DNA from: Ricordea florida | Lineage: Eukaryota > Cnidaria > Anthozoa > Corallimorpharia > Ricordeidae | DNA: 64,000 bases | Assembly (NCBI GenBank): GCA_949710005.1 | Contig: OX453275.1 | Span: 3,980,973-4,044,972, forward strand | Direction: 5' to 3' | Shown: in pieces, positions 10,151-27,360 of the stretch | How positions within the stretch are numbered: position 1 is the stretch's first letter | Layout of the letters: each line of letters opens with the position of its first letter | Notes under the pieces: model-generated | What the model was told of the DNA's origin: nothing | The model's input: only the letters and a program-made list of their open reading frames with translations | The model's database searches: none | Program-made: the position numbers and the translations under genes

Positions 10151-10285
10151 CGTATAGGGTGTTTCTGTCCAAAAGATGTTTTTCCCCTATTGATTTGACT
10201 TAGTCTTGACAAGCAAGAAGATGTAACACTTGTTATATGTTCATTAAAGCTCAATGTAGAAGGTCTCAATGGGGTGATGACTTTT

Positions 10286-10356
10286 TCGGCTAACGGTTAA
10301 TATTTTTTACTGTTTTACGGCTAACGGTTAATATTTTTGACTGTTTTACGGCTAAC
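10286..10356 (+). repeat. 31-bp satellite, left flank of Polinton
   Basis: A little over two copies of a 31-bp unit beginning GGCTAACGGTTAATATTTTT and ending CTGTTTTAC. The array is broken by the Polinton after CTAAC (10352-10356) and resumes on the right side at 27226. Confidence 0.8.
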
Positions 10357-10580
10357 AGTAGTAGGGAAAAGCCGGTTCTAGCGCAGTTCACTTTTTAAAT
10401 GAGAAAAAAAAAAATCCTTCGCAAAATTTATCAGAAATTTACCAAAACCGTTGCAAAGCCGTCGCTAATTCTTGCGAAAAATTTTACTAGAAATTTATCA
10501 GAAATTTACCAAAGCCGCTGCAAAGCCCTCACTGATTCCGGCGCAAAAAAATCCAGCGTAAAATTTATCAGAAATTTACC

Positions 10581-11162
10581 AAGCCGATGCCAAGCCGATG
10601 CCAAGCCGATGCCAAGCCGATGCCAAGCCTGTGCCAAGCCGATGCCAAGCCGATGCCAAGCCGATGCCAAGCCGATGCCAAGCCGATGCCAAGCCGATGC
10701 CAAGCCGATGCCAAGCCGATGCCAAGCCGATGCCAAGCCGATGCCAAGCCGATGCCAAGCCGATGCCAAGCCGATGCCAAGCCGATGCCAAGCCGATGCC
10801 AAGCCGATGCCAAGCCTGTGCCAAGCCGATGCCAAGCCGATGCCAAGCCGATGCCAAGCCGATGCCAAGCCGATGCCAAGCCGATGCCAAGCCGATGCCA
10901 AGCCGATGCCAAGCCGATGCCAAGCCGATGCCAAGCCGATGCCAAGCCGATGCCAAGCCGATGCCAAGCCTGTGCCAAGCCGATGCCAAGCCTGTGCCAA
11001 GCCGATGCCAAGCCTGTGCCAAGCCGATGCCAAGCCTGTGCCAAGCCTGTGCCAAGCCGATGCCAAGCCGATACTAAGCCGATGCCAAGCCTGTGCCAAG
11101 CCGATACTAAGCCGATACTAAGCCGATGCCAAGCCTGTGCCAAGCCGATGCCAAGCCTGTGC
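10581..11162 (+). repeat. 11-bp tandem array in left TIR (~53 units)
   Basis: The unit is AAGCCGATGCC, with variant units AAGCCTGTGCC and AAGCCGATACT. Variants are scattered, and concentrated toward the inner end. The unit contains no stop codon in any frame of either strand, so it creates long spurious open frames. Confidence 0.95.
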
Positions 11163-11213
11163 TAGAATTAAATTAATACAATAAAATAAAAAAAAAATGA
11201 TAAATAAATGTGG

Positions 11214-11221
11214 TTTAAAAA
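11214..11221 (+). promoter_or_regulatory. TTTAAAAA promoter-like box, left TIR
   Basis: Ends 20 nt before the start codon at 11242. An identical copy lies in the right TIR ahead of the polymerase. Confidence 0.5.
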
Positions 11222-11241
11222 GATGATTAATGAAATATTAA

Positions 11242-11691
11242 ATGGAGAATTTAGAAAGATTATATGTACCGCAATTGAGAAATATTGCAAGAAATCTGAA
11301 AATTAAAGGTTGTTATATAATGAATAAAAAAAATTTAATCAAAGAGATTGAAAAATTTACAGATGAAGAGAGTATTAAAATAATTTCAAAAGTTATTATT
11401 AATGATAAATATATTTGTGTTCATGGAAAGCGTAAATATTTTTGTAAAGAATGCGGGGGATCACAAATATGTGAACATGATAGAATTAAGTATTTTTGCA
11501 AAAAGTGTAAAGGGTCACAAATATGCAAACATGATAGAGTTAAGTATAATTGCAAAGAATGCGGAGGATCACAAATATGCGAACATGGTAAACAAAAACA
11601 ACAATGTAAAGAGTGTGGGGGATCGCAAATATGTGAACACGGCAAACAAAAAGCTTCTTGTAAAGATTGCCGAAAAAAATTAAAAAAATGA
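11242..11691 (+). CDS. SAP/HeH-like protein with five Cys-His repeats
   Basis: 149 aa. The first 16 residues (MENLERLYVPQLRNIA) are encoded inside the TIR and are identical to those of the polymerase at the other end. Residues 1-40 look like a small helix-extension-helix (SAP/HeH/Rho-N type) nucleic-acid-binding domain. Residues from about 55 onward carry five modules C-x-H-x6-C-x2-C spaced 18 residues apart and linked by GGSQI-like segments, a pattern that suggests zinc binding. As I recall, similar CEHG...CKECGG repeats occur in algae and large DNA viruses. Function unknown; a DNA-binding or regulatory role is inference. Confidence 0.7.
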   Translation: MENLERLYVPQLRNIARNLKIKGCYIMNKKNLIKEIEKFTDEESIKIISKVIINDKYICVHGKRKYFCKECGGSQICEHDRIKYFCKKCKGSQICKHDRVKYNCKECGGSQICEHGKQKQQCKECGGSQICEHGKQKASCKDCRKKLKK

Positions 11692-11698
11692 ATTATCA

Positions 11699-11706
11699 TT
11701 TAAAGA
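11699..11706 (+). promoter_or_regulatory. TTTAAAGA box, 225-aa gene
   Basis: Ends 22 nt upstream of the start codon at 11728. This is the only exact TTTAAAGA copy on the plus strand that precedes a Polinton gene. Confidence 0.5.
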
Positions 11707-11727
11707 TAAAAATTAAATTATTAAAAG

Positions 11728-12405
11728 ATGGTGAGAACTAAAATTTTTGAAAGATACTCTAATGATGAAAAAATGAATTTTTGCGATTTTATAGTGTCAA
11801 TTAAAGAAGATTTGTTAAAAAACATATCAGAAAATCGTGAGTTTATTGATTATTATCATTATGTTGAAGATGAAGATGAAAATCCTTATGGCTATCTTGA
11901 TAAATATGATAATAAGTTTATTAAATTTGAAATTACTTATTCTAATTATTATGAAGAAGATTATGATATTATTTTTTATGACGGCCGGTGGATTAATTTT
12001 AAATCTGGTATAAATTTTGATATTGATGGAATGGATGTTGATAATTTTGTAAAATCAGCATTAAATTGTGCTAGTACAAGGTTAAAAGATTGTGTTGGAG
12101 GCGATTATGGGCCATATTATCATTGTTTTGATCAATATTATGATGATTGTTTTGAATATTATATGGGTGGAGATGCTTATTATAATAAGCAATGTAATAT
12201 TAATAATTTCGATGAAAAGTTTTTTGTTAAAGAACTGGATTTTATTATATACTTAAATCAAGAAAAAATAAACCATAAAAATAAATTTTACAAAGATTTA
12301 CATAGTGATTTAATTGTTAAAGCATGGCATCCATCTAGGTATTTAGATTGGTGTGTTGATATAGAGGAGTTAAAGTTTTTGAAAGAGTTATGGGGAGAAG
12401 ATTAG
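11728..12405 (+). CDS. Polinton hypothetical protein, 225 aa
   Basis: Acidic and rich in Tyr, Asp and Asn, with no membrane segment. The last 45 residues contain a segment AWHPSRYLDWCVDIEE. As I remember, W-H-P-x-R-x3-W-C-x-D segments recur at the ends of proteins of large DNA viruses, but I cannot verify this here. Otherwise not recognised. It lies between the zinc-motif gene (+) and converges on the minus-strand structural block, 52 bp from its last gene. Confidence 0.6.
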   Translation: MVRTKIFERYSNDEKMNFCDFIVSIKEDLLKNISENREFIDYYHYVEDEDENPYGYLDKYDNKFIKFEITYSNYYEEDYDIIFYDGRWINFKSGINFDIDGMDVDNFVKSALNCASTRLKDCVGGDYGPYYHCFDQYYDDCFEYYMGGDAYYNKQCNINNFDEKFFVKELDFIIYLNQEKINHKNKFYKDLHSDLIVKAWHPSRYLDWCVDIEELKFLKELWGED

Positions 12406-12457
12406 TTAAAAATAATTATGTTATATAACCTAAAAGTGGTTACATAACAAAAAAAAT

Positions 12458-13093
12458 TTATCTAAATCTTAAACTAAAAGTTAAGGGAGAACCCATCAGA
12501 TCAAGTTTTTTCCATTCAACATCTAAGATGGTTAAATCAAAGTGGTTTATAACGCTATCATATTTTCGAATTGGAATTGTCGGATAATCTTTTGAGGGTA
12601 TGTTTGCAAGCAGGTTTGATGGCGAGAGTTTCACAAGTTCACCATATTTTGTTTTATTCATATATGACGACTTATTATCCACTATACTACACATAAGTCT
12701 CAACGGCTCCTTAATCTGTATATTTATAGGGTATAATTTACCAGGATTTATAACTCTGGGTATACCTAAACCAACCGCCAACCCTCTCGTAAGTTTAATG
12801 TTAAAGTTCTTATTTGAATATAGATAGTCAACAGTGTCTGTCTCAATGATTGTTATCTTTGCCTTTTCGGTATCATTAAGAAAGGTCGACTGAATATCAC
12901 GCAACGAATATGTACCGGGTTGTATTATTATTAGAGGCTGATTCTCATCATTAAACAATATCTGCTGATCCTTGAAATTAATTAATCTTTTGGTTTGTAT
13001 ATTGCAATCAAGGAGTTGTATCTCCCGAAGATTTTTCAGCGGCGGATCTAAATAAATCCTTGTTTCAGACTCATACATGGTAATGCTCAACAT
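12458..13093 (-). CDS. Candidate minor capsid (penton-like) protein
   Basis: 211 aa, predicted mostly beta-strand, without membrane segments. It has a C-terminal strand pattern (FDLTILDVEWKKLDLMGSPL, then FSLRFR) of the kind seen at the end of jelly-roll capsid proteins. Polintons normally encode a single-jelly-roll minor capsid protein beside the double-jelly-roll major one, and this is the best candidate. It is the last gene of the minus-strand block. A second methionine at codon 6 is possible, but the box spacing favours the first. The assignment is inference; a structure-based search would decide. Confidence 0.5.
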   Translation of the reverse strand: MLSITMYESETRIYLDPPLKNLREIQLLDCNIQTKRLINFKDQQILFNDENQPLIIIQPGTYSLRDIQSTFLNDTEKAKITIIETDTVDYLYSNKNFNIKLTRGLAVGLGIPRVINPGKLYPINIQIKEPLRLMCSIVDNKSSYMNKTKYGELVKLSPSNLLANIPSKDYPTIPIRKYDSVINHFDLTILDVEWKKLDLMGSPLTFSLRFR

Positions 13094-13114
13094 TTTTGTT
13101 TTCTGCGAAGCTGG

Positions 13115-13122
13115 TCTTTAGA
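13115..13122 (-). promoter_or_regulatory. TCTAAAGA box, 211-aa gene
   Basis: Begins 22 nt before the start codon at 13093, within a non-coding gap of about 230 bp. Confidence 0.5.
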
Positions 13123-13321
13123 TCTGATTACATCATTGACGTAATCACATTCCTGAGCGACGTTAGAAACCAGCCTTTAAAAAGTAAACATAAAATCTAC
13201 TTTTCGATTTCAAAACCACTTTACGTTTTGCTTGTTGCTATGTCGTAAAAGTATGCAATCTATTGTTCTACACGTGAACGCTAATCCAAAAACAATGATA
13301 ATCACGTGAAATGGCCATGAA
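13123..13321. other. Intergenic gap inside Polinton
   Basis: About 200 bp without a gene, the longest gap within the structural block. It contains CACGTGAA-type segments near 13273 and 13305 and no repeat that I recognise. Confidence 0.4.
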
Positions 13322-14893
13322 CTACCGAAATAGATACCACGCCAACCCTCCACTGATAATTATAAATGCTAATATACGCACTTCATGCTCGCTTTGTGGA
13401 TTGGTTTCATGTTGCATAGTCACGTCCTGACCTTTGGTTGACTTTTCATTTTGCTTTGGAGGGATTTTTGTTTTCGGATTTGTCTCAACTATTGAATGAG
13501 GTAATTTTAACTTTGAAGATCCTAAGTTATGACTTATTCCAACCGGTTTTGATTCCATGTTTAGCGAATTATTCACCCCAAATTTCATATCACCAGTCGC
13601 TTTCATAAGTTTGTTATTATATCCAACCACGCTCTCTGTATTTATGATCATATTACTTGGCATCAACCACAAACCAGGAGCAATAGCTAAATCAAGCCGC
13701 AATTTCGCTTCTTGTACGGCTAATTGATAATTTTTAACAGAATTCGAAATGTCATTTTCAATCACACTACTTTCAAATAAAGCCAAGAATTCTTGTTGTG
13801 TCTCGATTGCTCCGCCGCCATTACCATAAATCGGGTTTCTAGTGTTAACTTGTGCACCCAATATACAGTAAACAAAAGCTTCGGCGGATCGATTCAATCT
13901 ACCAAGCCCTGCTTTAGTGAGTCCATGTCCACTTGTTGGAATAAACCATGCATATCTGTAATCACCAAAGACATCATTACGAATAAATGAAATTAATTTA
14001 ACGTGATTATAGTCTGCGTCCTTTTTAAAAAATTTTTGTAATCCTTTAGCAACAGTTTTTTCTCTCTCAGTTAGGTCATCTGAAAATTTATTATCACCAC
14101 CAGGATATTGGCTTTCTTTGGGTGAACTTTCATCGTATTTATAAAATATATCTCCCAATCCATTGTTTGTTCCAATTTTAAACCTAAAATCTTCTGTATT
14201 ACTAATTCCAAACTCTTTACACAAACGTTGATATGCTACTTTACTATATGGATTGTTGTTTATTACAAATGGTTGCTCATCGGGTAGGGGTAGGCTTAAT
14301 TCATATAATATCCGTCTTATTGTGAAATATATATGAAACTTAATGAAGCCATTCACTACTTTGGGGTAATTTAGACTTTCAAAAGGACTAATCCCACAAC
14401 CAGATGTTGCACACCAAACTGCAAAGTTAAGTTGCTGAGGCCAATAGTTCATATCGGATCCATTCAACCATTTTCTACTTTGTTTTCCTGATTTGAAAGT
14501 TACAATTTGATTTGTAAATATGTTTCTCATTGGAGCTGTGAATTTCTTTGTATTTGAAACATATATATCTAGTGAGGTTAGCATTTTTGTTATATCACTT
14601 GTAAAGTCACCAAAGTTAATAGCCGGTATAGGATAACTTTGGTTAGTCATGGTTAAACTCTTTGGGAATGAACTCTGGTTAATCGATTCACTTAACCCTA
14701 AATCCTTCCATAAAAGTTTTTTCAAATTAGGAGAAAGATCATCAGTCCATGTTTTTCCAGTAGGATCATCATTAGACATGACAGTCATATCATTAACTTT
14801 CCACTTAATATATCCTCCAAATGAATCATTCACAAATGTAAATTTATCAAGATTAGCGCTTGGATATCTATTTTTGAAGTCGTTTAATAACAT
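13322..14893 (-). CDS. Polinton structural-type protein with C-terminal anchor, 523 aa
   Basis: The largest product of the structural block after the polymerase. Most of the chain is soluble, with a Cys-containing core NYWPQQLNFAVWCATSGCGI near residues 150-170. A Pro/Lys/Gln-rich linker follows near 470-500, then a hydrophobic C-terminal helix at about 505-523 ending in WYLFR. The tail anchor suggests a membrane-attached virion or assembly protein. Similar proteins accompany capsid genes in cnidarian Polintons as far as I recall, but I know no function. Its size is also close to that of an adenovirus penton, so it competes with the 211-aa protein for that role. Confidence 0.65.
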   Translation of the reverse strand: MLLNDFKNRYPSANLDKFTFVNDSFGGYIKWKVNDMTVMSNDDPTGKTWTDDLSPNLKKLLWKDLGLSESINQSSFPKSLTMTNQSYPIPAINFGDFTSDITKMLTSLDIYVSNTKKFTAPMRNIFTNQIVTFKSGKQSRKWLNGSDMNYWPQQLNFAVWCATSGCGISPFESLNYPKVVNGFIKFHIYFTIRRILYELSLPLPDEQPFVINNNPYSKVAYQRLCKEFGISNTEDFRFKIGTNNGLGDIFYKYDESSPKESQYPGGDNKFSDDLTEREKTVAKGLQKFFKKDADYNHVKLISFIRNDVFGDYRYAWFIPTSGHGLTKAGLGRLNRSAEAFVYCILGAQVNTRNPIYGNGGGAIETQQEFLALFESSVIENDISNSVKNYQLAVQEAKLRLDLAIAPGLWLMPSNMIINTESVVGYNNKLMKATGDMKFGVNNSLNMESKPVGISHNLGSSKLKLPHSIVETNPKTKIPPKQNEKSTKGQDVTMQHETNPQSEHEVRILAFIIISGGLAWYLFR

Positions 14894-14921
14894 CTTATTC
14901 TTTGTGTTTCAGATAATATGG

Positions 14922-14929
14922 TCTTTAGA
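14922..14929 (-). promoter_or_regulatory. TCTAAAGA box, 523-aa gene
   Basis: Spacing to the start codon at 14893 is 28 nt. Confidence 0.5.
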
Positions 14930-15021
14930 TTAAGAATAAGATGTAAATTGTTATCAATTAATTTCTTTTCTGATACCTGCAAAACAATTGCAACCCACAT
15001 CAGTTCTTTCATATGAAATTT

Positions 15022-15618
15022 TTAATGAGTGGGAGTGGTTAACTCTTTTAATAGATCTGCGCGAACTTCTCTTCTTATCTGAGACATGTTTAAGTTTTTT
15101 TCTGTATCTCTCCTAAATTTTTGACGGATTTCTAGTTTTAGTTTTTGAAACTTTTCCAACTCTGCTAAAATTATGGAAAATTCTTGATCGGATACAACAT
15201 TATCTTTCAAAGCCTTTGAAACCAAGTCGTTAATGGTGTTTAATTTTGATTTTGCAATTGCGGTGGTTTGTTCGTGTTTGCTAACTTTATGAGAAAGTTT
15301 TTTAGCAGCAATACCAAATCCAACCGATAATCCGCCAAAAACTCCACCTACAACACCCAAAGGCACACCAACAACAGCACCAAAACCAGTAAGAGAAGTT
15401 CCTAAACCGCTTGCAGATAGAATAACTGAAATCATACCGCCACAAACACTTATTTTTGTAAATATTCCTCTAGCTCTATTATATTTTTTTCTTACTTCTT
15501 CGTAATGTCTAATTTCTTTCTCAAGATTTTGTAATACTTCGCTTGATTTTTGCAGTCTGAAATTAATAGGATCAGGATTATTAGGCAATCCAGGGTAAAT
15601 TCTATTGTATTCATCCAT
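15022..15618 (-). CDS. Polinton protein with glycine-rich hydrophobic hairpin, 198 aa
   Basis: The frame is open from 15717, but I choose the ATG at 15618. It lies 26 nt after a TTTAAAGA box and avoids overlap with the preceding gene. A charged coiled-coil-like start is followed by a long Gly/Val-rich hydrophobic stretch (about residues 51-106), then a helical Lys/Glu-rich C-terminal half. This could be a double-spanning membrane protein or a membrane-active virion component. No enzyme motif is seen. Function unknown. Confidence 0.65.
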   Translation of the reverse strand: MDEYNRIYPGLPNNPDPINFRLQKSSEVLQNLEKEIRHYEEVRKKYNRARGIFTKISVCGGMISVILSASGLGTSLTGFGAVVGVPLGVVGGVFGGLSVGFGIAAKKLSHKVSKHEQTTAIAKSKLNTINDLVSKALKDNVVSDQEFSIILAELEKFQKLKLEIRQKFRRDTEKNLNMSQIRREVRADLLKELTTPTH

Positions 15619-15644
15619 ATTGTATTTTACTGAACAGCATGATA

Positions 15645-15652
15645 TCTTTAAA
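15645..15652 (-). promoter_or_regulatory. TTTAAAGA box, 198-aa gene
   Basis: Its position, 26 nt ahead of 15618, argues for the internal start of that gene, because the longer frame would start upstream of the box. Confidence 0.5.
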
Positions 15653-15656
15653 TTTG

Positions 15657-16607
15657 TTACTTTCTCTTTTTTATACTTTCCACAAAATATAGAACCACGG
15701 CCATTATCAATAACCAAGCATTCTTACCTAAAAATCCAATAACCTCACCGGCTGTTTTAAATAGAAAGCTCACGATAGCTCCAACCATTCCCGGCAATAT
15801 TTCACCCAGTTTTTTACCTAAAGTTTTCAACCCGTTACCAACACCTTTCCCTAAAGTAGATAATCCTTTTGAAAGATTAGAAACTATAACACCAATTATA
15901 ACACCAACAGAGCTAACAACAGCAAAAACTGTAAAACCATACTTTTTGAAGATTGCTTTAATTCGCTCTCGTAATGACATTTTATTTTGTATTTTTTCTT
16001 CCTCATCTTCTAAACTAGCTAAATCTTCTTCATTATTAACAATTTCTCTCTCATCGGCTTCAATTTGACTACTTTCCTCAGGTGTAATATTTGGTTTATC
16101 TCTTTTGATTTTTATATTTTCTTTTAGTTTAGCAATTAAACCTTTTTTCTTTGTTTTTTCATTTCTAATTGATTCCAAAATCTCTTCAGGCGGGGGGCCA
16201 AGAGCCCTTTTTATTTGTTTTGGCAAGTTTTTGTTAACATTTCCATATCTATCATAAAAATTATACCACGTAATTTCTTCAGGATTATCACGAGTTATTC
16301 CAACTTGTAATTTATTATATTCATTATACCTATGATCAAAATTTGCTATCGCTCTTGGCCGTTTACTTTTAATCTCTTCCCAAGATTCTTGTAACTCATC
16401 ATTATCTACATATACTTTTGTTTTGGGTCTTGCCCCACCAAATGAAGTTTCTGCCTCCGCCCTCCTCTCATCATCTTGGTTAATTAAAGGAGTGGTTGAC
16501 GATATTGTATTGAATTCCATATTTTGTTCATCATTATCATCATCTTTTGGTTCATTTAGTTCAGTTGGATCTAAATCCTCTAATGGTAAATATCCTCCTT
16601 CTGCCAT
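15657..16607 (-). CDS. Polinton multi-span membrane protein, 316 aa
   Basis: An acidic N-terminal third and a charged, probably coiled-coil middle (about 155-215) precede a hydrophobic C-terminal third. The last part has likely membrane helices near 226-246, 270-290 and 295-312, separated by Gly/Lys-rich amphipathic turns, and ends in a basic KKRK tail. The form fits a late membrane or membrane-lytic virion protein. No catalytic motif is visible, and the function is not known to me. Confidence 0.65.
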   Translation of the reverse strand: MAEGGYLPLEDLDPTELNEPKDDDNDEQNMEFNTISSTTPLINQDDERRAEAETSFGGARPKTKVYVDNDELQESWEEIKSKRPRAIANFDHRYNEYNKLQVGITRDNPEEITWYNFYDRYGNVNKNLPKQIKRALGPPPEEILESIRNEKTKKKGLIAKLKENIKIKRDKPNITPEESSQIEADEREIVNNEEDLASLEDEEEKIQNKMSLRERIKAIFKKYGFTVFAVVSSVGVIIGVIVSNLSKGLSTLGKGVGNGLKTLGKKLGEILPGMVGAIVSFLFKTAGEVIGFLGKNAWLLIMAVVLYFVESIKKRK

Positions 16608-16636
16608 ATTTAGATTTTTTACTCAACAGTAAGAAA

Positions 16637-16644
16637 TCTTTAAA
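16637..16644 (-). promoter_or_regulatory. TTTAAAGA box, 316-aa gene
   Basis: 29 nt before the start codon, the largest spacing of the set. The leader that follows (TTCTTACTGTTGAGTAAAAA) resembles that of the 72-aa gene. Confidence 0.5.
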
Positions 16645-16662
16645 TCGTACACTGTGAAGTAT

Positions 16663-17055
16663 TTATAAAAATTTACTAGCCATATAACCTAAGGCTAACA
16701 TACCACCACCTACATATACCATTTCACCCATCTTTTGATTATCGCTGGGTCTATAATAATCAGAGAATTTAGGTTCTTGCATTTGTTCATATAATGCAAA
16801 TTGTTCATTTGTAGTTGAAATATTTTTTGATGCTTGATATTTTTCATCTTTTTTCTTAATTTTCCAATCCATTAGTTTTTGTCTTTTTTCCTGATATTCT
16901 GCATAATCTCTTTGATATTTTTCCATTGCTTTATCGTGTCTTATTTTTTCTGTATCAGTTTTATTTCCTGATAAATATTTTGCGAGATATGAACCGCCAA
17001 CAAATGCAGTTGCATTTAATACAGCTCCTCCAATCATAAATGCTATTGATGCCAT
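16663..17055 (-). CDS. Polinton protein with hydrophobic ends, 130 aa
   Basis: A hydrophobic N-terminus (about 4-29, Gly/Ala-rich) and a hydrophobic C-terminal segment (about 112-130) flank a strongly charged helical middle. It starts 10 bp after the stop codon of the 72-aa gene and has no promoter-like box of its own, so the two are probably expressed together. Small proteins of this type are common in cnidarian Polintons as I recall. Function unknown. Confidence 0.65.
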   Translation of the reverse strand: MASIAFMIGGAVLNATAFVGGSYLAKYLSGNKTDTEKIRHDKAMEKYQRDYAEYQEKRQKLMDWKIKKKDEKYQASKNISTTNEQFALYEQMQEPKFSDYYRPSDNQKMGEMVYVGGGMLALGYMASKFL

Positions 17056-17065
17056 TTTATATTCG

Positions 17066-17284
17066 TTAATTTGGAAGTATCTTTTGTTCCTCTAAATATG
17101 TTTTTAGATACATACTACCCGATAATACAGCAACCCATTTTGCATAATTTGTAATACTTGAGGATGGATCGTTCATAAATGATTCTTTAATCATCTTTTT
17201 AGCTACATAACCAACTCCAGCTGCTAATCCGATAAGGACTGCTGAATCAGTAACAGTTTTCACAAGTTTATTTTCGTTTGACAT
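17066..17284 (-). CDS. Polinton small membrane protein, 72 aa
   Basis: One clear hydrophobic segment near 12-28 (AVLIGLAAGVGYVAKK) and a weaker one near 48-60. It stands directly upstream of the 130-aa gene with a 10-bp gap. No known function. Confidence 0.6.
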   Translation of the reverse strand: MSNENKLVKTVTDSAVLIGLAAGVGYVAKKMIKESFMNDPSSSITNYAKWVAVLSGSMYLKTYLEEQKILPN

Positions 17285-17309
17285 AATTTTTTACTACAAC
17301 AGTAATAAA

Positions 17310-17317
17310 CTTTTAAA
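17310..17317 (-). promoter_or_regulatory. TTTAAAAG box, 72-aa gene
   Basis: 25 nt ahead of the start codon; the presumed single promoter for the 72-aa and 130-aa pair. Confidence 0.45.
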
Positions 17318-17347
17318 TGGTTTTATGTAGTAAAAAATAATTTATAA

Positions 17348-17776
17348 TTACATCATCCCAATTTTTGGGCGATCAAGAGGCGGCGCTTGAGTATTTGTTT
17401 GCGGATTATGAACCTTTATTGGTGGGGCTTGAAAAGGTTGCGGTATTTGAGATAAATCAGGTATTCTATTTTTGTATCTCATAAAAAGATCAAATGCTGT
17501 AAAACCTATTCCAACAATAGATAAAACAGTAGTAAAAGATAACTCAGGCATCCATGATTTTGATTCACTATATGTATTTTCATTTTGCTCTTCTTCCTGT
17601 TTCATTTTTTCTTCACGTTTCATTTCCCTGGCTAATGCTTCTTTTGCTTTTTTATTATATTCTGCCAATTTTTTACCAGACGCAACCTTTTTAGGATCTT
17701 TTGCCTTTTTTCCTGTAGTTTTTTCCTCTTCTTTTGGAGGATCTCTTGTAATTTGTTCAACAACTTCTTCAGACAT
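17348..17776 (-). CDS. Polinton single-span protein, 142 aa
   Basis: Start taken at the second ATG (17776) because the box ends 22 nt before it. A Lys/Glu-rich N-terminal region (residues 1-75) is followed by one membrane helix (about 81-99) and a Pro/Gln-rich tail. Its first part was duplicated to build the neighbouring chimeric gene. Function unknown. Confidence 0.65.
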   Translation of the reverse strand: MSEEVVEQITRDPPKEEEKTTGKKAKDPKKVASGKKLAEYNKKAKEALAREMKREEKMKQEEEQNENTYSESKSWMPELSFTTVLSIVGIGFTAFDLFMRYKNRIPDLSQIPQPFQAPPIKVHNPQTNTQAPPLDRPKIGMM

Positions 17777-17798
17777 TATTTTACATATCATTAAGAAA

Positions 17799-17806
17799 TC
17801 TTTAGA
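17799..17806 (-). promoter_or_regulatory. TCTAAAGA box, 142-aa gene
   Basis: Part of the 485-bp duplicated unit; the same leader precedes the chimeric gene. Confidence 0.5.
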
Positions 17807-17844
17807 CCACTTAGGAATGATATGTAAATAAAATAATAGTATGC

Positions 17845-18261
17845 TTAGTAGACAGTATCAGTACCGCTAGCATCTTGCTCAGTTTTGTTAGAATCATCTG
17901 TATTAGTACTTGTAACTTGTTGTATTTTACCTATTTTAACATGTTTAACAACCTGGAATAGCCCGCTAGCGCCGCTATCTCCCATATTGTGAATTTTGAG
18001 ATAAATCAGGTATTCATCTCCAGCTTTTTCCTTGCGTCTCATAAAAAGATCAAATACTGTAAAACCTAATCCAACAATAGATAAAACAGTAGTAAAAGAT
18101 AACTCAGGCATCCATGATTTTGATTCGCCATATGTATTTTCATTTTGCTCTTCTTCCTGTTTCATTTCCCTGGCTAATGCTTCTTTTGCCTTTTTTCCTG
18201 TAGTTTTTTCCTCTTCTTTTGGAGGATCTCTTGTAATTTGTTCAACAACTTCTTCAGACAT
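17845..18261 (-). CDS. Chimeric Polinton gene, 138 aa
   Basis: The N-terminal part is a copy of the 142-aa protein: the same MSEEVVEQITRDPPKEEEKT start and membrane helix, with two internal deletions. The C-terminal 40 or so residues, from SGLFQVVKHVKIG on, copy the end of the 179-aa protein encoded just upstream. The start at 18261 follows the duplicated box. The gene thus joins the head of one neighbour to the tail of the other, through a tandem duplication with 485-bp spacing. The frame is open throughout. It may be functional or a by-product. Confidence 0.65.
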   Translation of the reverse strand: MSEEVVEQITRDPPKEEEKTTGKKAKEALAREMKQEEEQNENTYGESKSWMPELSFTTVLSIVGLGFTVFDLFMRRKEKAGDEYLIYLKIHNMGDSGASGLFQVVKHVKIGKIQQVTSTNTDDSNKTEQDASGTDTVY

Positions 18262-18283
18262 TATTTTACATATCATTAAGAAA

Positions 18284-18291
18284 TCTTTAGA
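18284..18291 (-). promoter_or_regulatory. TCTAAAGA box, chimeric gene
   Basis: Exactly 485 bp from its twin at 17799, with the same spacing of 22 nt. Confidence 0.5.
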
Positions 18292-18329
18292 CCACTTAGG
18301 AATGATATGTAAATAAAATAATAGTATGC

Positions 18330-18869
18330 TTAGTAGACAGTATCAGTACCGCTAGCATCTTGCTCAGTTTTGTTAGAATCATCTGTATTAGTACTTGTAA
18401 CTTGTTGTATTTTACCTATTTTAACATGTTTAACAACCTGGAATAGCCCGCTAGCAAGTGCTGCCAATCTTCCTGCTTTCAATGCTAAGAGCCCTACAAT
18501 GTTTGTCAATTCACGATTAACCAAATCATCATTCTTCAAATCCACACAAAGAGCTTCTATATCATCAACCGGAACTAAATATGAAATAAGTTTGGAAACT
18601 AATTGAAGGGATGAATCAACCAATCCGCCATTAATTTTTTTACCCATTACCGCTTGATATCGATTAAAATATTTTTCTACATCTTTTTCTGATAATTTTT
18701 TTATATCACCCAAACTCATTTCAACTCCTAAATATTCCTTTGTGGTTCCAAGAGCTGCGAGAATGGCCAGCGATTCTTGTTTGATTTCAATTTCATTATC
18801 ATCATTATCTTTTACCTCGGTCTTTCCTACAGTCTTTTCTTCTTCAATATAATCTTCTACGCTTGTCAT
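18330..18869 (-). CDS. Polinton hypothetical protein, 179 aa
   Basis: I place the start at the internal ATG 18869, 23 nt after a TTTAAAAA box; the frame extends upstream to 18914. Acidic N-terminus, helical middle, and a moderately hydrophobic segment near residues 115-140 (IVGLLALKAGRLAALASGLF). The last 40 residues are duplicated in the chimeric gene. Not an adenain-like protease by inspection. Function unknown. Confidence 0.6.
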   Translation of the reverse strand: MTSVEDYIEEEKTVGKTEVKDNDDNEIEIKQESLAILAALGTTKEYLGVEMSLGDIKKLSEKDVEKYFNRYQAVMGKKINGGLVDSSLQLVSKLISYLVPVDDIEALCVDLKNDDLVNRELTNIVGLLALKAGRLAALASGLFQVVKHVKIGKIQQVTSTNTDDSNKTEQDASGTDTVY

Positions 18870-18892
18870 CTTTTGTGATAATACATGGATTA

Positions 18893-18900
18893 TTTTTAAA
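18893..18900 (-). promoter_or_regulatory. TTTAAAAA box, 179-aa gene
   Basis: Lies 4 bp before the end of the ATPase gene and supports the downstream start at 18869. Confidence 0.45.
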
Positions 18901-18903
18901 TCG

Positions 18904-19530
18904 TTATTCACCATTCGGAACTTCCAAATAGCAGTTAAATGGATGTCGTAAAGATAAACAAAGTCTAGAATATTTTTCAGTTTTCAGGAGTTGAACAAAC
19001 TTTTTACTAGTTTCAGAGTCTAAATCACCCCCATAATCTTCGAAAAACATCTTCATACCTTTCTGCGACGGATTATGAAATGAGACCACACAAGCCACAT
19101 TTTCTCGGAAAGGTTTTGCAATTGATGTTAATTGCTGAGTGAGAACCCAAACTGATAATCCGTGATGCCTTCCAGAGAATGCTAAATCTATAAACTTGTT
19201 TGATCTTTTCTTCAGATCATTAGATACAGCGCAATCATCTAAAATTATCAGTGTATTTGTACCAGAGAATAAAGTTTGACAATCAGTTAATAACTCATTA
19301 ATCTCATCAATGTTACTAGCATCTGGTGATAATACAAAGAAACGTTTATCTCCTCGAGCAAAATTATGATAAGTTTTATTCTTAGAATAAGTTGGACATA
19401 TTAAAACAATGTAATCAAAAATTTTTCGGAATGGCCCTCTTAGCTGATTGATGAGGTACTTTGTTTTTCCACAATTTGTTGGGCCGGTTATGATACAATG
19501 GAATGGTATTTTTTCTCGTAGTTCTTCCAT
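18904..19530 (-). CDS. A32-like packaging ATPase
   Basis: FtsK/HerA-superfamily ATPase that drives genome packaging in Polintons and related viruses. With the start at 19530 (208 aa) the Walker A motif GPTNCGKT is at residues 16-23. Walker B TLIILDD is near 93-99, and a sensor-like SVWVLTQQ is near 126-133. An upstream ATG at 19545 is in frame, but the promoter-like box is only 11 nt from it and 26 nt from 19530. The gene sits directly before the major capsid gene in transcription order, as is usual. No damaged motif is seen. Confidence 0.88.
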   Translation of the reverse strand: MEELREKIPFHCIITGPTNCGKTKYLINQLRGPFRKIFDYIVLICPTYSKNKTYHNFARGDKRFFVLSPDASNIDEINELLTDCQTLFSGTNTLIILDDCAVSNDLKKRSNKFIDLAFSGRHHGLSVWVLTQQLTSIAKPFRENVACVVSFHNPSQKGMKMFFEDYGGDLDSETSKKFVQLLKTEKYSRLCLSLRHPFNCYLEVPNGE

Positions 19531-19556
19531 GATTTTTTGTATCATAACATAATATT

Positions 19557-19564
19557 TTTTTAAA
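19557..19564 (-). promoter_or_regulatory. TTTAAAAA box, ATPase gene
   Basis: The 26-nt spacing to the second in-frame ATG favours 19530 as the start. Confidence 0.45.
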
Positions 19565-19618
19565 TTCGCTTCCAGCTTCGCTGGGGAGGGCTCCGCCCGA
19601 TCGCGGGCCCAGAGGGTT

Positions 19619-20845
19619 TTAGTACTTAATTGATCTCAAACCTGAATTCATAATCTCCATCATTGCATCAGCTACAACAAACATATGACAGGTTATAGTG
19701 CCAGATCCACTTTGTTTTCTTTTAATTTCTAGTTTTACACCATCTTGTGTATTGTTTAATGCTAGACCACCTCCATGAATACCATTATCTGGGTGAGTTC
19801 TCATATCAACCCAAAGAGCAAACTTATCAGCATAAAAATCCTTTTCCTTTACGCCATCTCTTCCGAAACGTTTCTTTACCGACTCCCATAGATCTGATGG
19901 TATCATCCCCTTAGAGTATAATCGATTTGGAACACCATCAACATCTATATTAATCGAGGTTATACCTGGATTGTAAAAATTCTCAGAGTTACGTGCTCCT
20001 GCTGTGAATGGTAATGTAAACAAACATAATATCCCTGTCATTGATCTTCTAGGTAGATTAATATGCTGATTGATAACACCATCACCGCCTATGGAAAAGG
20101 TAAAAGTTTTATGGAGAGTTACATTTTCATAAAAGAAGCCTTTGCCGACTTGATAAGCTGCTTGTGCCTCGCGAGCCAAATATTCGCTTGAAATGGAAGA
20201 ATATTCTAACTCAAGGTTTTTTATTGAATAAGATGGAGTCTTAGTAGTGTCGGAATAAACAACAATATCATTAATTGGAGCAAGTGTAATCTCAAATATT
20301 AGATGATGATCTAGAGCTTTTGGGTAAAAAACCCCATGATCGTTTAGAATAGGATGGTTTATTGGTATGCGATATTTGGTGTTATGTACTTTTGAAAGAG
20401 CCTCTTCCTTAACATCTTGTGTTTTCTTATCACCTGCATTTGTCCTGAGCTTCCTCATGTTTACAGAAGAAATACCTTGTTTTAATCTATCTTCACGTTC
20501 TTCATCTGTTAAGAATAAGTCATGATATGTTTGAAATAGATCATATCTTTGAGTATCCTGTAATGTTTCACCTCCAAAAAGAACTTTAAGTCTAGATACA
20601 AGATTCCTTCCCACATTATTCACAAGTGTATTATTAGCGTGTCCATCTACATCCAAGTCAAATAGTAGAGATACACTTCCAGGCACAATCACTAAATTCT
20701 CAGAAAGTTTTGGAATATTTATATATAATGTTTCTCCGGGGCTAGCAGATGATGGATTGAGAGTAATTCGGTTCATTGTTGATTCTGCTTTCAAACCAAA
20801 TGGCTCTCTAGGAATTCTATTTGGATTAATTTTTTCAGATGTCAT
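19619..20845 (-). CDS. Major capsid protein, double jelly-roll type
   Basis: 408 aa, beta-rich, no membrane segments. Features typical of Polinton/adintovirus hexon-like capsid proteins include an early segment IVPGSVSLLFDLDVDG, then NVGRNLVSRLKVLFGGE, YDLFQTYHDLFLT, and a later INIDVDGVPNRLYSKGM. The family forms trimeric capsomers of icosahedral shells. The gene stands between the ATPase and a 75-aa gene. Its promoter-like box lies inside the end of that upstream gene. The frame is uninterrupted. Family assignment comes from recalled similarity plus position next to the packaging ATPase. Confidence 0.82.
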   Translation of the reverse strand: MTSEKINPNRIPREPFGLKAESTMNRITLNPSSASPGETLYINIPKLSENLVIVPGSVSLLFDLDVDGHANNTLVNNVGRNLVSRLKVLFGGETLQDTQRYDLFQTYHDLFLTDEEREDRLKQGISSVNMRKLRTNAGDKKTQDVKEEALSKVHNTKYRIPINHPILNDHGVFYPKALDHHLIFEITLAPINDIVVYSDTTKTPSYSIKNLELEYSSISSEYLAREAQAAYQVGKGFFYENVTLHKTFTFSIGGDGVINQHINLPRRSMTGILCLFTLPFTAGARNSENFYNPGITSINIDVDGVPNRLYSKGMIPSDLWESVKKRFGRDGVKEKDFYADKFALWVDMRTHPDNGIHGGGLALNNTQDGVKLEIKRKQSGSGTITCHMFVVADAMMEIMNSGLRSIKY

Positions 20846-20851
20846 TGTAAT

Positions 20852-21079
20852 TTATAAGATACTTTGGTTAATCTTTAAACCTCTTGGGCGGCTGAATTGG
20901 TATTTTTTTTTATTCTCTAATTCTTCAATATGTTTTACTAAACTTTCTCTTACTCCCTCAATTACAAGCATTACATTAAAAAGTTCATCACCATATTCCA
21001 TATTTTGAATTTTTTGGATGATAATTTTTTTCATAAGCTTAATTTGATATTCGCTAAAATTTATTTTTTCTTCCTCCAT
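20852..21079 (-). CDS. Polinton hypothetical protein, 75 aa
   Basis: A short, Lys/Glu-rich, probably helical protein (starts MEEEKINFSEYQIKLMKKII). It ends 6 bp before the capsid gene starts. Its leader of about 26 bp is nearly identical to that of the capsid gene, so one leader was probably copied from the other. Not recognised. Confidence 0.5.
   Translation of the reverse strand: MEEEKINFSEYQIKLMKKIIIQKIQNMEYGDELFNVMLVIEGVRESLVKHIEELENKKKYQFSRPRGLKINQSIL
20872..20879 (-). promoter_or_regulatory. TTTAAAGA box, major capsid gene
   Basis: Lies within the coding end of the 75-aa gene, 26 nt from the capsid start codon. Confidence 0.5.
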
Positions 21080-21105
21080 TATAATTTATAAGATACTTTG
21101 GTTAA

Positions 21106-21113
21106 TCCTTAAA
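21106..21113 (-). promoter_or_regulatory. TTTAAGGA box, 75-aa gene
   Basis: 26 nt from the start codon of the 75-aa gene; its first base pair overlaps the integrase start codon on the other strand. Confidence 0.45.
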
Positions 21114-22135
21114 TGAGTAACGAAAAGATATCAAAAATATCGGCGGAGCCGGGCCCGACTTTGAGTCGGATATATTATTCAACTGAAGGATATTGGAAAG
21201 GATATTCCGCAATCTCCAAATTATCACAAAAAGCAAAAATAAGTCAAGATGTAGCGAAACAATGGTTAGAGAAACAAGCAATATGGCAAATATATCTACC
21301 ACCACCAAAATATATTCCAAGACCACACTGGACTGTAGATAAACCAAATCATATTCACCAAGCAGATTTATTATTTTTACCGCATGATAGAGTTGGAAGA
21401 AAAACATATAAATACGCATTAGTCGTGGTTGATATCGCCTCGAGATATAAAGATGCGGAGCCATTAACCACAAAAGAAAGTCGAGAAATATCAAATGCTT
21501 TTGAAAAAATATATTCTAGAAGATTGAAATACCCTAAAACATTAATGGTTGATCCCGGAAAAGAATTTATGGGCGAGGTTACAAAACTTATGAATTATCA
21601 TAATGTGAAAATACAGAGAAGTGAAGCAGGAAATCATAGAGCTCAAGCATTTGTGGAAAACGCAAACAGAATATTAGGTGAAAAATTATTTAGCCATCAA
21701 TATGCGCAAGAAATGGTAAGTGATGCCCGATCTAGATTATGGGTGAAACGATTACCTGATATTTTGAAAACTTTGAATAATACACCAACGAGAATAACTG
21801 GTAAAGAGCCCGTTAAATCTATAAAACAGAAGGAGGTTGATATTGAACCTAAAAAGTATAATCGAGTTGTTGGTCTTGACGAGGTTAGATTGCCACCTTA
21901 TGTTAACGTTAGATATTTATTATTTCCTGGCGAACTTGAAGGTGGTGAAAAAAGGAGGGCTACAGATCCTATTTGGAGTATCAAAGTTTATGATATTTCT
22001 AAAAGTATGATTACACCTAATCAACCGGTTTTATATTATTTAACTGATGGGCCAAGACGTGGTTTTGTTAGGGAAGAATTACAAGTTATACCTTATGATA
22101 CGCAGTTACCTCCTAATTCTGTTTTGATAAGATAA
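21113..22135 (+). CDS. Retroviral-type integrase (rve family)
   Basis: 340 aa. Residues 27-60 form a small helix-turn-helix-like N-terminal domain (SKLSQKAKISQDVAKQWL). The catalytic core has D85 (HQADLLFLP), D147 (LMVDPGKEF) and E182 (AFVENANR), the DDE triad of retroviral and Polinton integrases. The C-terminal part is a basic, beta-rich, SH3/chromo-like tail. It inserts the element's DNA into the host genome, consistent with the short target duplication at the ends. It is divergent from the 75-aa gene (33-bp gap) and its 3' end overlaps that of the polymerase by 43 bp. No TTTAAAGA-type box precedes it on the plus strand. Confidence 0.92.
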   Translation: MSNEKISKISAEPGPTLSRIYYSTEGYWKGYSAISKLSQKAKISQDVAKQWLEKQAIWQIYLPPPKYIPRPHWTVDKPNHIHQADLLFLPHDRVGRKTYKYALVVVDIASRYKDAEPLTTKESREISNAFEKIYSRRLKYPKTLMVDPGKEFMGEVTKLMNYHNVKIQRSEAGNHRAQAFVENANRILGEKLFSHQYAQEMVSDARSRLWVKRLPDILKTLNNTPTRITGKEPVKSIKQKEVDIEPKKYNRVVGLDEVRLPPYVNVRYLLFPGELEGGEKRRATDPIWSIKVYDISKSMITPNQPVLYYLTDGPRRGFVREELQVIPYDTQLPPNSVLIR

Positions 22136-25100
22136 TGACCATATGCAAAAGTATGTATTCCATCTTTACAAATGATTCTCTTATCATCATCAGCAGATAG
22201 TGCAACTTTATTAATTGTTTCTGAAAAAACGTCGTGCTTATGACTTCTTAATACATTCATCCGCCTCATCTGTGGCTTTTTATTGAAAAGGCAATCCTTA
22301 TAATCATTAAATCTTATGGTCTTTTTCACGATTGCCTTCTTTACTCCCTTACATTTCTTTTCTTCTTCGCCCTCATCCATCTTGTAGGAGTAAAGCTTTG
22401 CTCGTAGTCCTACAAATTCAGTTATCTGCTTACCGCCAGCTTCATCTTTAAACATATTAACAACTTTCTTATTCACACCAGTCTCAATACCAGACGGATG
22501 GTCTTTAGGAAAATTGCTGGTATCGAACATTTTTCTCACATCGGGGCTAATATCTTTATAGAAATCTTCTGTTTCTATTTCATATGCAAGGCTGTCCGTA
22601 TCTGTAAACAACAATTTTGCTTTTTCTCCATATTTAGGTTTAATATAATTATAGTGAAATTTGTACATTATTGTTTTACTTAGATCCAGAATGCACATAC
22701 CCAAGTAAACAGGTTTATTGAATACTAGCTTTGTTTTCTTCATGTGGATAGCCACAAGATTTTCACAAAAGATAGTACGATGATTATAGTTAGGTTTTGA
22801 TATTAATTTTTTTGCATCTTTTTCATTAGTAACCAATTGCACATCCACCCTTTTTCTAATGTTTTCCATTGTTTTACCAAATACGGAGTTATTCATAAGT
22901 TTGAAGAAATCTTTCTCAAAATCGTTATTTCCTTTAGCTCTTAGGTTTGTATTCAAGTCAATGTATGGTTTTAACCAAGCCGACTCTTTAAATGTAATGC
23001 CTCTATGAATTTTTGTAACTTTTAATCCAAGACTTTCGTAAAGTTTTAGTGTTTCATGATGAACAACATACTTTACCTTATTGTTTAGGTTTGGAATCAA
23101 TTTCTCAACCTTATTAATGATAAGTCTCTCTGGAGCGAGGGGGTAATCATTATGCAAATCATGAAGGTTAGTTGGGTATTCCAAATCAACCTCTATTATA
23201 CAGGAGATATTTTTCCAGTTTTTAAGATCTTCTTCACTCATCCATCTAAAACCGTGTGTAGGTAGTTTTTCACTCATTCCCCCGCCATATAGATTGTTTG
23301 CGTCGAGATATGAAATATACTTTGTAGGTAGTTTTGGATCATATTCGTTCATGTAGGGGTTGTTAGCTTTCCCATATCTAGTAGATATCATGGATACACC
23401 ACCCCGCACACCTTTTTCAATCATAAGTAGCATGTCAATGTCGGTCAGCAACTCTAAATTAACCTTTGTTATCTTTAATGTTGCATCCCAAGCTAGTCCC
23501 GGCGCTGTATAATACCAGGCGGGATCCAATCCATAGTTTTTACTACAAACATCTCTAAAGTTCTCGAATACATCCGCTAAAAGTAACACATCAGATTTTA
23601 GATATAGATCATGATATTCTCTCATTGTTTTCATATTGAAGGTTTCCCACACCTTTTTAGCGTGTTTATAATCATTATCTGATATATTTTCATCGCTTAG
23701 TTTTGAATAGAACGCTTCTTTAGGTGGAAGTTGAGTTGCGTTAAGTTTATCGAAGCTATCAAACCAATCATATGGAAAAACTCCTTTTCTCAACAATGAA
23801 TTTAATTCTTCGCCTTCAAAATACTTTGTAATTTCATGTAAGTTTTTATCTGTTGGATTAAGACACCTACCTTTTATTACACCTTTACAAACATCACACT
23901 TTCCACATTTAGTAAGATTACTAGATAAATTATCTAGACTTGATGCCATAAATTTAAATGAATCTATGAATCTAATATCTCGTTTTACCTCAACCCGATT
24001 GCCTTCTTTATTTGTAAATGTATCAACCACAATCTTTTTTGCGAAAGAAATATACTTTTCCTCATTATTAGGTATGCAGTTTATATTACCTTTTGTTGTA
24101 CCAAGATTCTTGATAAAAAGATGCGCGTCATATCCAGATAGGTTGTGAAATATTACGGGAAAGAACTTTGGAATCTTGTAATTTAAGTTGCATTCATTAT
24201 GAGCTGCTCCTCTATACTTTCCTGTAAGATGACAGTGATCTAATACCTTATATTCCCCCAATTCTTTCTCGCAGATGTGGCAGTGAGTAGCATTTTCATA
24301 TTCTTTTTTATCCATTTCTGTCATAAATCCCACCCTCTTATGGTATTTTGTCTTATTGTAAATTTTTTTAATATCCTGCTCCAAATTATCTACAAATATC
24401 TGCGGGATATCATCATCTGGGAATTCGGCGGTGTATTGCACAAGCTCGGGTGGAAATATTTTATCATCAAAAGATTTTATGAGATAGCAGAATCCTGATG
24501 GTTTGTGTTTTTGGTATTGATTAGTAAAACTTTCACTTTCATATGGTGAGCAGGTGTGTATTTTCTCTGGGTAACACTCAAAGTCCGCATATACAACAAA
24601 TGGTACACGCATTTTTCTATTGAAGTTCTTAAAATCAATAAACTTAGGATTTCCATCTTTATCCATAGGCATAACAATCTTTACTTCTTCATTTGTAGCG
24701 CAATATTCAAGATGTTTTTCCAATGAAGTTTCTGTAGGAAATGAATTGTAGCATCTACGACAAAATTCGCGTTTGTGTTGTTTATTATTTATTTGTGACG
24801 AAACAAGTCTACTAAAATTCTTTATCCAACAGTAATGACTATTTCCCTCCTCATTAGTTAATAGAAGTAATTCAATCATATAACCACTTTGTTTCTTACT
24901 TATTCTCATAGGATATACTTCGCCCTTATCTTTATCAAATCCGTGGACGTTAATCGTATAATAAGGATTTTGTTTTTCAAACTTATCAATATCTTTCAAT
25001 TTAGCAGGGAACTCTATTCCTTTCCAGTTAAACTTCTCAGAGTTCTCTCTCATTTGTTTATTTAGTCTTTGTGGGTCTTTCTCTTTAGGAAACACGGCGG

Positions 25101-26241: not shown

Positions 26242-26261
26242 TTAATATTTCATTAATCATC

Positions 26262-26269
26262 TTTTTAAA
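26262..26269 (-). promoter_or_regulatory. TTTAAAAA box, polymerase gene
   Basis: 20 nt ahead of the polymerase start codon; identical mirror copy of the box at 11214. Confidence 0.5.
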
Positions 26270-26320
26270 CCACATTTATTTATCATTTTTTTTTTATTTT
26301 ATTGTATTAATTTAATTCTA

Positions 26321-27001
26321 GCACAGGCTTGGCATCGGCTTGGCACAGGCTTGGCATCGGCTTAGTATCGGCTTAGTATCGGCTTGGCACAGGCTTGGCA
26401 TCGGCTTGGCATCGGCTTGGCATCGGCTTGGCATCGGCTTGGCATCGGCTTGGCATCGGCTTGGCATCGGCTTGGCATCGGCTTGGCATCGGCTTGGCAT
26501 CGGCTTGGCACAGGCTTGGCATCGGCTTGGCATCGGCTTGGCATCGGCTTGGCATCGGCTTGGCATCGGCTTGGCATCGGCTTGGCATCGGCTTGGCATC
26601 GGCTTGGCATCGGCTTGGCATCGGCTTGGCATCGGCTTGGCACAGGCTTGGCATCGGCTTGGCATCGGCTTGGCATCGGCTTGGCATCGGCTTGGCATCG
26701 GCTTGGCATCGGCTTGGCATCGGCTTGGCATCGGCTTGGCATCGGCTTGGCATCGGCTTGGCATCGGCTTGGCATCGGCTTGGCATCGGCTTGGCATCGG
26801 CTTGGCATCGGCTTGGCATCGGCTTGGCATCGGCTTGGCATCGGCTTGGCATCGGCTTGGCATCGGCTTGGCATCGGCTTGGCATCGGCTTGGCATCGGC
26901 TTGGCATCGGCTTGGCACAGGCTTGGCATCGGCTTGGCATCGGCTTGGCACAGGCTTGGCATCGGCTTGGCATCGGCTTGGCATCGGCTTGGCATCGGCT
27001 T
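26321..27001 (-). repeat. 11-bp tandem array in right TIR (~62 units)
   Basis: 681 bp of the same AAGCCGATGCC unit. The variant units are distributed differently from those on the left, so the array evolves by unit gain and loss rather than by whole-TIR copying alone. Confidence 0.95.
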
Positions 27002-27225
27002 GGTAAATTTCTGATAAATTTTACGCTGGATTTTTTTGCGCCGGAATCAGTGAGGGCTTTGCAGCGGCTTTGGTAAATTTCTGATAAATTTCTAGTAAAA
27101 TTTTTCGCAAGAATTAGCGACGGCTTTGCAACGGTTTTGGTAAATTTCTGATAAATTTTGCGAAGGATTTTTTTTTTTCTCATTTAAAAAGTGAACTGCG
27201 CTAGAACCGGCTTTTCCCTACTACT

Positions 27226-27360
27226 CTAACGGTTAATATTTTTGGCTGTTTTACGGCTAACGGTTAATACTTTTTACGGCTAACGGCTAAAATTTTTCAA
27301 TATTCATGTTATTTACGCCTAAGGGCTAATTTTTTTGCCCGTTTTACGGCTAACGGTTAA
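27226..27360 (+). repeat. 31-bp satellite, right flank of Polinton
   Basis: Starts with the duplicated target CTAAC and continues the GGTTAATATTTTTGGCTG-type unit interrupted at 10356. Later units are degenerate. Confidence 0.7.

Follow-up and report, generated by a model that had tools for sequence, protein, structure and literature searches.

Polintons are here taken, following a published proposal, to be relatives of virophages, giant viruses and cytoplasmic plasmids. In poxviruses, intermediate promoters are read by the viral polymerase with VITF-3. According to the extracts of PMC12917281, an AT-rich core near -20 is separated in these promoters by a 12-bp spacer from TAAA at -1 to +3, and the vaccinia late promoter is given as TAAAT(G/A) in excerpts of PMC5294985. 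In yeast virus-like elements (pGKL), each gene has a conserved box 20-40 nt ahead of its start codon, sequence farther upstream being without effect, and 5' poly(A) leaders arise from a TAAAN initiator (PMC6211774, excerpts). The virophage mavirus is linked to a giant virus (PMC10945749, PMC8547959, both in extract), and the late promoter of mavirus and Cafeteria roenbergensis virus (CroV) is characterised by TCTA flanked by A/T-rich stretches (PMC8547959); other motifs occur in endogenous mavirus-like elements (EMALEs). Here we analyse a stretch of 64,000 nucleotides from Ricordea florida (assembly GCA_949710005.1, contig OX453275.1, positions 3,980,973 to 4,044,972 of the forward strand), called the window throughout, which contains a Polinton at 10357..27225. 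Most genes of the Polinton clade to which this element belongs are probably preceded by a two-part core promoter, composed of a short box and a downstream run of A residues (A-run). Box and A-run occur in a defined strand, at fixed spacing, and recur before unrelated genes.

The box was defined as T(T/C)TAAA(G/A)(A/G), its distance was counted from box end to ATG, and window gene starts were set where homologues start. An exact box is present 20-29 nt before the ATG in 13 of 16 window genes, two genes have a box with one mismatch and orf130 has none. The features are given below; TIR stands for terminal inverted repeat, and positions with a plus sign are counted from the first base of the box.

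10357..27225, no strand: Polinton element, 16,869 bp, inverted ends AGTAGTAGGG.../...CCCTACTACT
11214..11221, + strand: box TTTAAAAA, left TIR gene (ATG 11242), distance 20 nt; A-run 11240-11242 includes the A of the ATG
11699..11706, + strand: box TTTAAAGA, orf225 (ATG 11728), 21 nt; A-run from 11723
13115..13122, - strand: box TCTAAAGA, orf211 (ATG 13093), 21 nt; A-runs at +20 and +25
14922..14929, - strand: box TCTAAAGA, orf523 (ATG 14893), 28 nt; A-runs at +20 and +26
15645..15652, - strand: box TTTAAAGA, orf198 (ATG 15618), 26 nt; A-run from 15628 downwards
16637..16644, - strand: box TTTAAAGA, orf316 (ATG 16607), 29 nt; A-run from 16620 downwards
17080..17087, - strand: best place ACAAAAGA of orf130 (ATG 17055), two mismatches, counted as no box
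17310..17317, - strand: box TTTAAAAG, 72-aa gene (ATG 17284), 25 nt; A-run from 17292 downwards
17799..17806, - strand: box TCTAAAGA, orf147 (ATG 17776), 22 nt; A-run from 17782 downwards
18284..18291, - strand: box TCTAAAGA, orf143 (ATG 18261), duplicate of orf147, 22 nt; A-run from 18267 downwards
18893..18900, - strand: box TTTAAAAA, orf194 (ATG 18869), 23 nt; A-run from 18874 downwards
19557..19564, - strand: box TTTAAAAA, packaging ATPase (Pox_A32; ATG 19530), 26 nt; A-run from 19538 downwards
20872..20879, - strand: box TTTAAAGA, major capsid gene (ATG 20845), 26 nt; A-run from 20853 downwards
21085-21092, + strand: one-mismatch box TTTATAAG, INT (ATG 21113), 20 nt; overlaps the A-run of the 75-aa gene
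21106-21113, - strand: one-mismatch box TTTAAGGA, 75-aa gene (ATG 21079), 26 nt; overlaps the TAAATG of INT
26262..26269, - strand: box TTTAAAAA, PolB-like/right TIR gene (ATG 26241), 20 nt; A-run includes the A of the ATG

The earlier note on this DNA had claimed the box before 14 starts, on both strands and in both TIR genes. This is borne out: the 13 exact boxes and the one-mismatch box of the 75-aa gene make 14, and the boxes of both TIR genes, on opposite strands, lie 20 nt from their ATGs. The range given for it ended at 21113 and was too narrow, since the element extends to 27225 and the box of the right TIR gene lies beyond that limit. When the TIR copies are counted as one sequence and the duplicates orf147 and orf143 likewise, exact boxes precede 11 of 14 non-redundant window starts. 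The box is also enriched if each gene is simply taken from its longest open reading frame (ORF). In this count of 14 genes, which predates the noticing of two small genes, a box occurs within 40 nt of 11 starts (mean 0.61 and maximum 4 in 2000 shuffles) and at exactly 20-29 nt from eight (mean 0.19, maximum 3). Other ATGs have a box at this distance in 7 of 568 cases inside the element, some of them later in-frame starts of orf147, orf194 and the ATPase, and in 10 of 1514 cases outside.

The box had further been proposed to guide the choice of start codons for five genes. This use is supported for three genes, orf147, orf194 and the ATPase, which fit a later in-frame ATG: these starts were picked with the box in view, and in a diverged element (L102) the homologous frames of all three open exactly at the later ATG. 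The box also pointed to two small genes, of 72 aa at 17284 and of 75 aa at 21079, both on the - strand. The latter and INT share a putative compact divergent promoter of about 29 bp (21085..21113), in which the TTTAAA-like start region of each gene overlaps, on the other strand, the box of the opposite gene. The gene facing INT is the 75-aa gene in the window and the capsid gene in other copies.

The A-run went unnoticed in the earlier note. It starts 24-26 nt after the first base of the box, 16-18 nt from the box end. In 66 box-bearing leaders aligned on the box, A is found in 94% at +26 and +27. Since leaders are A-rich near the ATG, the control was made by permuting box-ATG distances among sequences. 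The A fraction at +26..+27 is 0.94 versus 0.62 permuted, and none of 20,000 permutations was as high (p<=0.00005). For 53 leaders with the ATG at +30 or later, the values are 0.97 versus 0.69, and with one sequence per gene name the median p is 0.005. Beyond +20, the earliest AAA begins at +24..+26 in 50 of 66 leaders (permuted mean 19, maximum 30 in 5000 runs). The position of the ATG varies from +27 to +37 while the A-run stays fixed to the box; among 44 orf194 copies, for instance, the ATG is at +31 in 30 or at +36 in 11, and the A-run at +26 in 32. Within the window, AAA starts at +24..+26 in 15 of 16 genes, all except orf130; it is the first such run in 13, and in orf211 and orf523 it is the second, after one at +20. 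The base preceding the A-run is T in 33, C in 19 and G in 10 of 62 leaders, so that TAAA is not strict. TTTAAA is present in 80% of the 66 exact boxes and TCTAAA in a fifth.

Box and leader recur in other Polintons of the same genome (538 Mb, 48 contigs), from which all tested sequences are derived. Capsid genes of 95-100% identity number at least 102, the scoring having covered the best 102 of 6206 candidates; a second capsid query, P0096, retrieved at least 100 with 65-70% identity. Across 30 near copies, among them that of the window, the box does not vary and the leader hardly does, in contrast to the sequence upstream of the box. Among the diverged capsid upstreams, 20 of the 100 places found with the second query were inspected; each has TTTAAAG or TTTAAAAG, and a corresponding divergent arrangement is readable. 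Of 84 further places ranked by Pfam, 20 starts were inspected: nine have TTTAAAG, and in the other eleven, which belong to a more diverged group, the corresponding place is occupied by TTTATAAA, TTTACAAA or TTTACAAC. Start codons in both of these sets were chosen by eye from the frame. No relatives outside this genome were found in viral-contig scans with the capsid alignment, PolB, INT and ATPase.

A homology search yielded 457 starts, reduced to 126 by collapsing upstreams at 70% identity and to 116 after ten representatives were dropped as alternative in-frame starts of listed genes or as doubtful starts; a chance pattern match (L001) and the window's own copy (L003) had been left out. An exact box at 20-29 nt precedes 63 of these 116 non-redundant starts, 52 of 102 outside the window, as compared to a mean of 1.49 and a maximum of 7 in 500 shuffled controls. 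The reverse complement of the box occurs in none of the 116 starts; the box itself occurs in none at 0-14 nt and in one at 33-52 nt. The enrichment expected by the earlier note is thus confirmed. The top 7-mers obtained with no prior motif are TAAAGAT (27 versus 1.2) and TTAAAGA (28 versus 1.5). An exact box at 15-32 nt is lacking in 50 starts; in 30 of them a box with one mismatch lies at 19-29 nt, against a mean of 4.9 and a maximum of 12 in 300 shuffled runs. Exact boxes precede 17 of 20 starts in the elements L102 and L106.

We infer a promoter role for these sequences, with transcription starting at the A-run and short leaders. An initiation factor would bind the box, most commonly GATTTAAAGATT, and the polymerase would start on the A-run, usually (T/C)AAA, the first A of which lies 24-26 nt from the first base of the box and 21-22 nt from the box centre. 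The messenger would then begin 0-12 nt before the start codon. A-run and ATG merge into TAAATG in several genes, INT and TIR/PolB among them, whose messengers would lack a leader unless A's were added by slippage of the polymerase. The nearest start codon to the box start among the 66 leaders is at +27, right at the A-run; start codons at 27-28 nt are found in INT, TIR/PolB and single copies of orf198, ATPase, orf130 and sml74b. ATG triplets occupy 46 of 1056 positions from +8 to +23 and one of 419 from +24 to the start codon; other words made of these letters show less depletion over the final 13 nt. The depletion is consistent with initiation at the A-run and with 0-12-nt leaders, as supporting evidence rather than proof.

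Transcription might alternatively start inside the box and produce a leader of 20-29 nt. Such a leader is of ordinary length, and an initiator was among the two suggestions of the earlier note. This is nevertheless improbable: 34 of 66 leaders, representing 10 of 15 gene names, contain an ATG that follows the box and precedes the A-run, and 34 of the 48 upstream ATGs counted are out of frame. In addition, the two genes of the divergent pair (21085-21113) would have overlapping leaders, and the box is tied to the downstream element rather than to the ATG. The suggestion of an initiator is probably wrong for the box, the likelier initiator being the A-run at +24..+26.

Several observations weigh against the two-part promoter as a universal signal or against its proposed start. 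In orf130 nothing better than two mismatches is found, and 20 of the 116 starts lack both the exact box (15-32 nt) and the one-mismatch box (19-29 nt). Exact boxes precede only 6 of 24 starts in the more diverged elements L103-L105 and none of four in L046, a distant element (ATPase 54% identical, G+C 50%) whose four starts are less certain, being offset 3 to 21 nt from the extrapolated start. As to the proposed start, leaders of ATPase, orf147 and orf194, related within each of these genes, account for 23 of the 34 that contain an upstream ATG, and the A-rich stretch after +24 itself lowers the ATG expectation there. The box is a property of one Polinton clade, not of every Polinton in the genome. 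The conservation looked for in related Polintons thus holds within this genome for L102 and L106, is weak in L103-L105 and fails in L046. An element-specific promoter is still the best reading of a strand- and position-specific box before unrelated genes, although not as a universal one. A box version particular to L046 was considered and rejected, as two TTGAACAC-like places are too few to claim it.

The strongest competitor is a host RNA polymerase II (Pol II) TATA box, with TTTAAAGA or TTTATAAA as the TBP site, a start about 30 nt downstream and the A-run merely part of an A-rich leader. The promoter variants of capsid (TTTATAAA) and INT (TTTATAAG) resemble TATA sequences, and no RNA polymerase gene was recognised by Pfam scans in 14 of 16 window genes, which makes host Pol II the default reader. 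We regard this as possible, yet less likely than the two-part promoter. Pol II starts transcription about 30 nt downstream of the first T, and with start codons at 27-28 nt from the box start, initiation at +30/+31 would cut the start codon off. Besides, the A-run is at constant distance to the box, not to the ATG, and L046, a Polinton in the same genome, lacks the exact box at the four tested starts. Chance or shared descent would attribute the box to frequent TTTAAA in an AT-rich element and to relatedness of the copies; the coding part is indeed 68% A+T and many copies are more than 95% identical. The probability of this explanation is almost negligible, given that the box is strand- and position-specific with no reverse complement, is far above dinucleotide shuffles after collapse to less than 70% identity and is present before unrelated genes. 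That the site serves a different DNA-binding function (replication, packaging, silencing) or acts in the RNA as a translation element is highly unlikely; the function of the box is putative, which leaves room for both, but as a rule each gene start has a single site, oriented like the gene, and a spacing that follows the A-run instead of the ATG disfavours a translation signal. RNA polymerase III was rejected, as runs of at least four T are found on the coding strand of 15 of 16 window genes.

The element itself has features of a Polinton. Its long inverted ends are flanked by a 5-bp target-site duplication, CTAAC (10352-10356 and 27226-27230), compared to the usual 6 bp of Polintons. Retroviral-type integrase, packaging ATPase and capsid protein are all present, with Pfam matches above curated cut-offs (rve 8.4e-9, Pox_A32 4.4e-12, Capsid_N 1.6e-5). 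The right TIR encodes a 1382-aa protein that presumably is PolB-like, judging from motifs recognised by eye; it reached no Pfam polymerase model and matched no polymerase structure. Its named relatives, among 120 listed, are from Nematostella and Stylophora and are uncharacterized or transposon-derived. The Polinton is inserted within a host 31-nt tandem repeat (two copies, 10282-10343), and its long TIRs are largely an 11-nt tandem repeat. The left TIR gene contains three 54-nt repeats (18 aa, cysteine-rich; 11433-11648) and a weak, sub-threshold match to a TFIIB-type zinc ribbon (E 0.0087), and it has a Rho_N-like start in common with the PolB-like protein.

A recent duplication at 17472-18455 comprises two 274-nt copies (17697-17970 and 18182-18455) of 100% identity, which join orf147/orf143 and the tail of orf194. 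A hairpin, GTTATATAACC...GGTTACATAAC, is located at 12420-12448, between orf225 and orf211, whose ends converge there, and similar arms occur in L102 at 7646 and 7666; it is possibly a bidirectional transcript end. Canonical poly(A) signals (AATAAA or ATTAAA) are seen in 3 of 16 window genes within a range that reaches from 40 nt upstream to 80 nt downstream of the gene end, a raw count on which no claim is based. G+C-rich short palindrome-like stretches lie just upstream of the box in some copies (about 19568-19615, L106, L089) and look like small inserted hairpins.

Instead of host Pol II, a poxvirus-like polymerase that a giant virus provides in trans might read the promoter code, as happens with virophages in protists; we consider this unlikely. 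In that case messengers would have (T/C)AAA as their start and 5' poly(A) leaders made by slippage, and because of such leaders start codons could be fused to the initiator. Four Pox_VLTF3-like matches exist in the genome (C15:18661274, C8:15643102, C12:7234181 and C6:16806129), two of them with internal stops, which suggests old giant-virus DNA; they may indicate only possible past contact of giant viruses with the lineage. At two of the four places no box was seen upstream of five ORFs of at least 60 aa (one with 12 nt only), too little to judge.

In the freely accessible literature searched on promoters and motifs of Polintons, Mavericks and adintoviruses, no description of the box or of the Polinton transcription mode was found among the papers listed. 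The genome carries a heavy Polinton load with many capsid frames intact. A sharp promoter signature would allow gene starts and small genes to be called, and host-polymerase and helper-virus models to be separated.

As far as the extracts of the cited papers go, the layout is on our best reading closer to poxvirus intermediate promoters than to a canonical Pol II TATA box. Similarly to the former, it has two parts, with the box centre 21-22 nt before the A-run at which, judged from sequence, transcription would start. Unlike them, it has a sharp box (TTTAAAGA) in place of a core with no sequence consensus, and 16-18 nt from box end to A-run in place of the 12-bp spacer; moreover, poxviruses encode their own polymerase, and none was recognised in the scanned window genes. 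The fused TAAATG of INT and the TIR genes recalls the vaccinia late TAAAT(G/A). With pGKL the Polinton shares a conserved box per gene, a comparable distance to the start codon and, putatively, an A-rich initiator. The pGKL box, however, is ATNTGA, with a median of 11 nt from extended box to start, as opposed to the Polinton words TAAAGAT and TTAAAGA, and the pGKL system is thought to use its own polymerase. In mavirus and CroV, too, genes of a relative that integrates are preceded by a short motif, and TCTAAA makes up a fifth of the Polinton boxes; TTTAAA nevertheless predominates in these, and a fixed-spacing A-run is not described for mavirus/CroV in the extracts. A Pol II TATA box is similar in sequence class, and to that extent the earlier note's description of the box as TATA-like was apt, but the distance to the putative Polinton start is about 5 bp too short by the Pol II standard. 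If this geometry is confirmed, it would point to a shared design among Polinton relatives or to a striking convergence.

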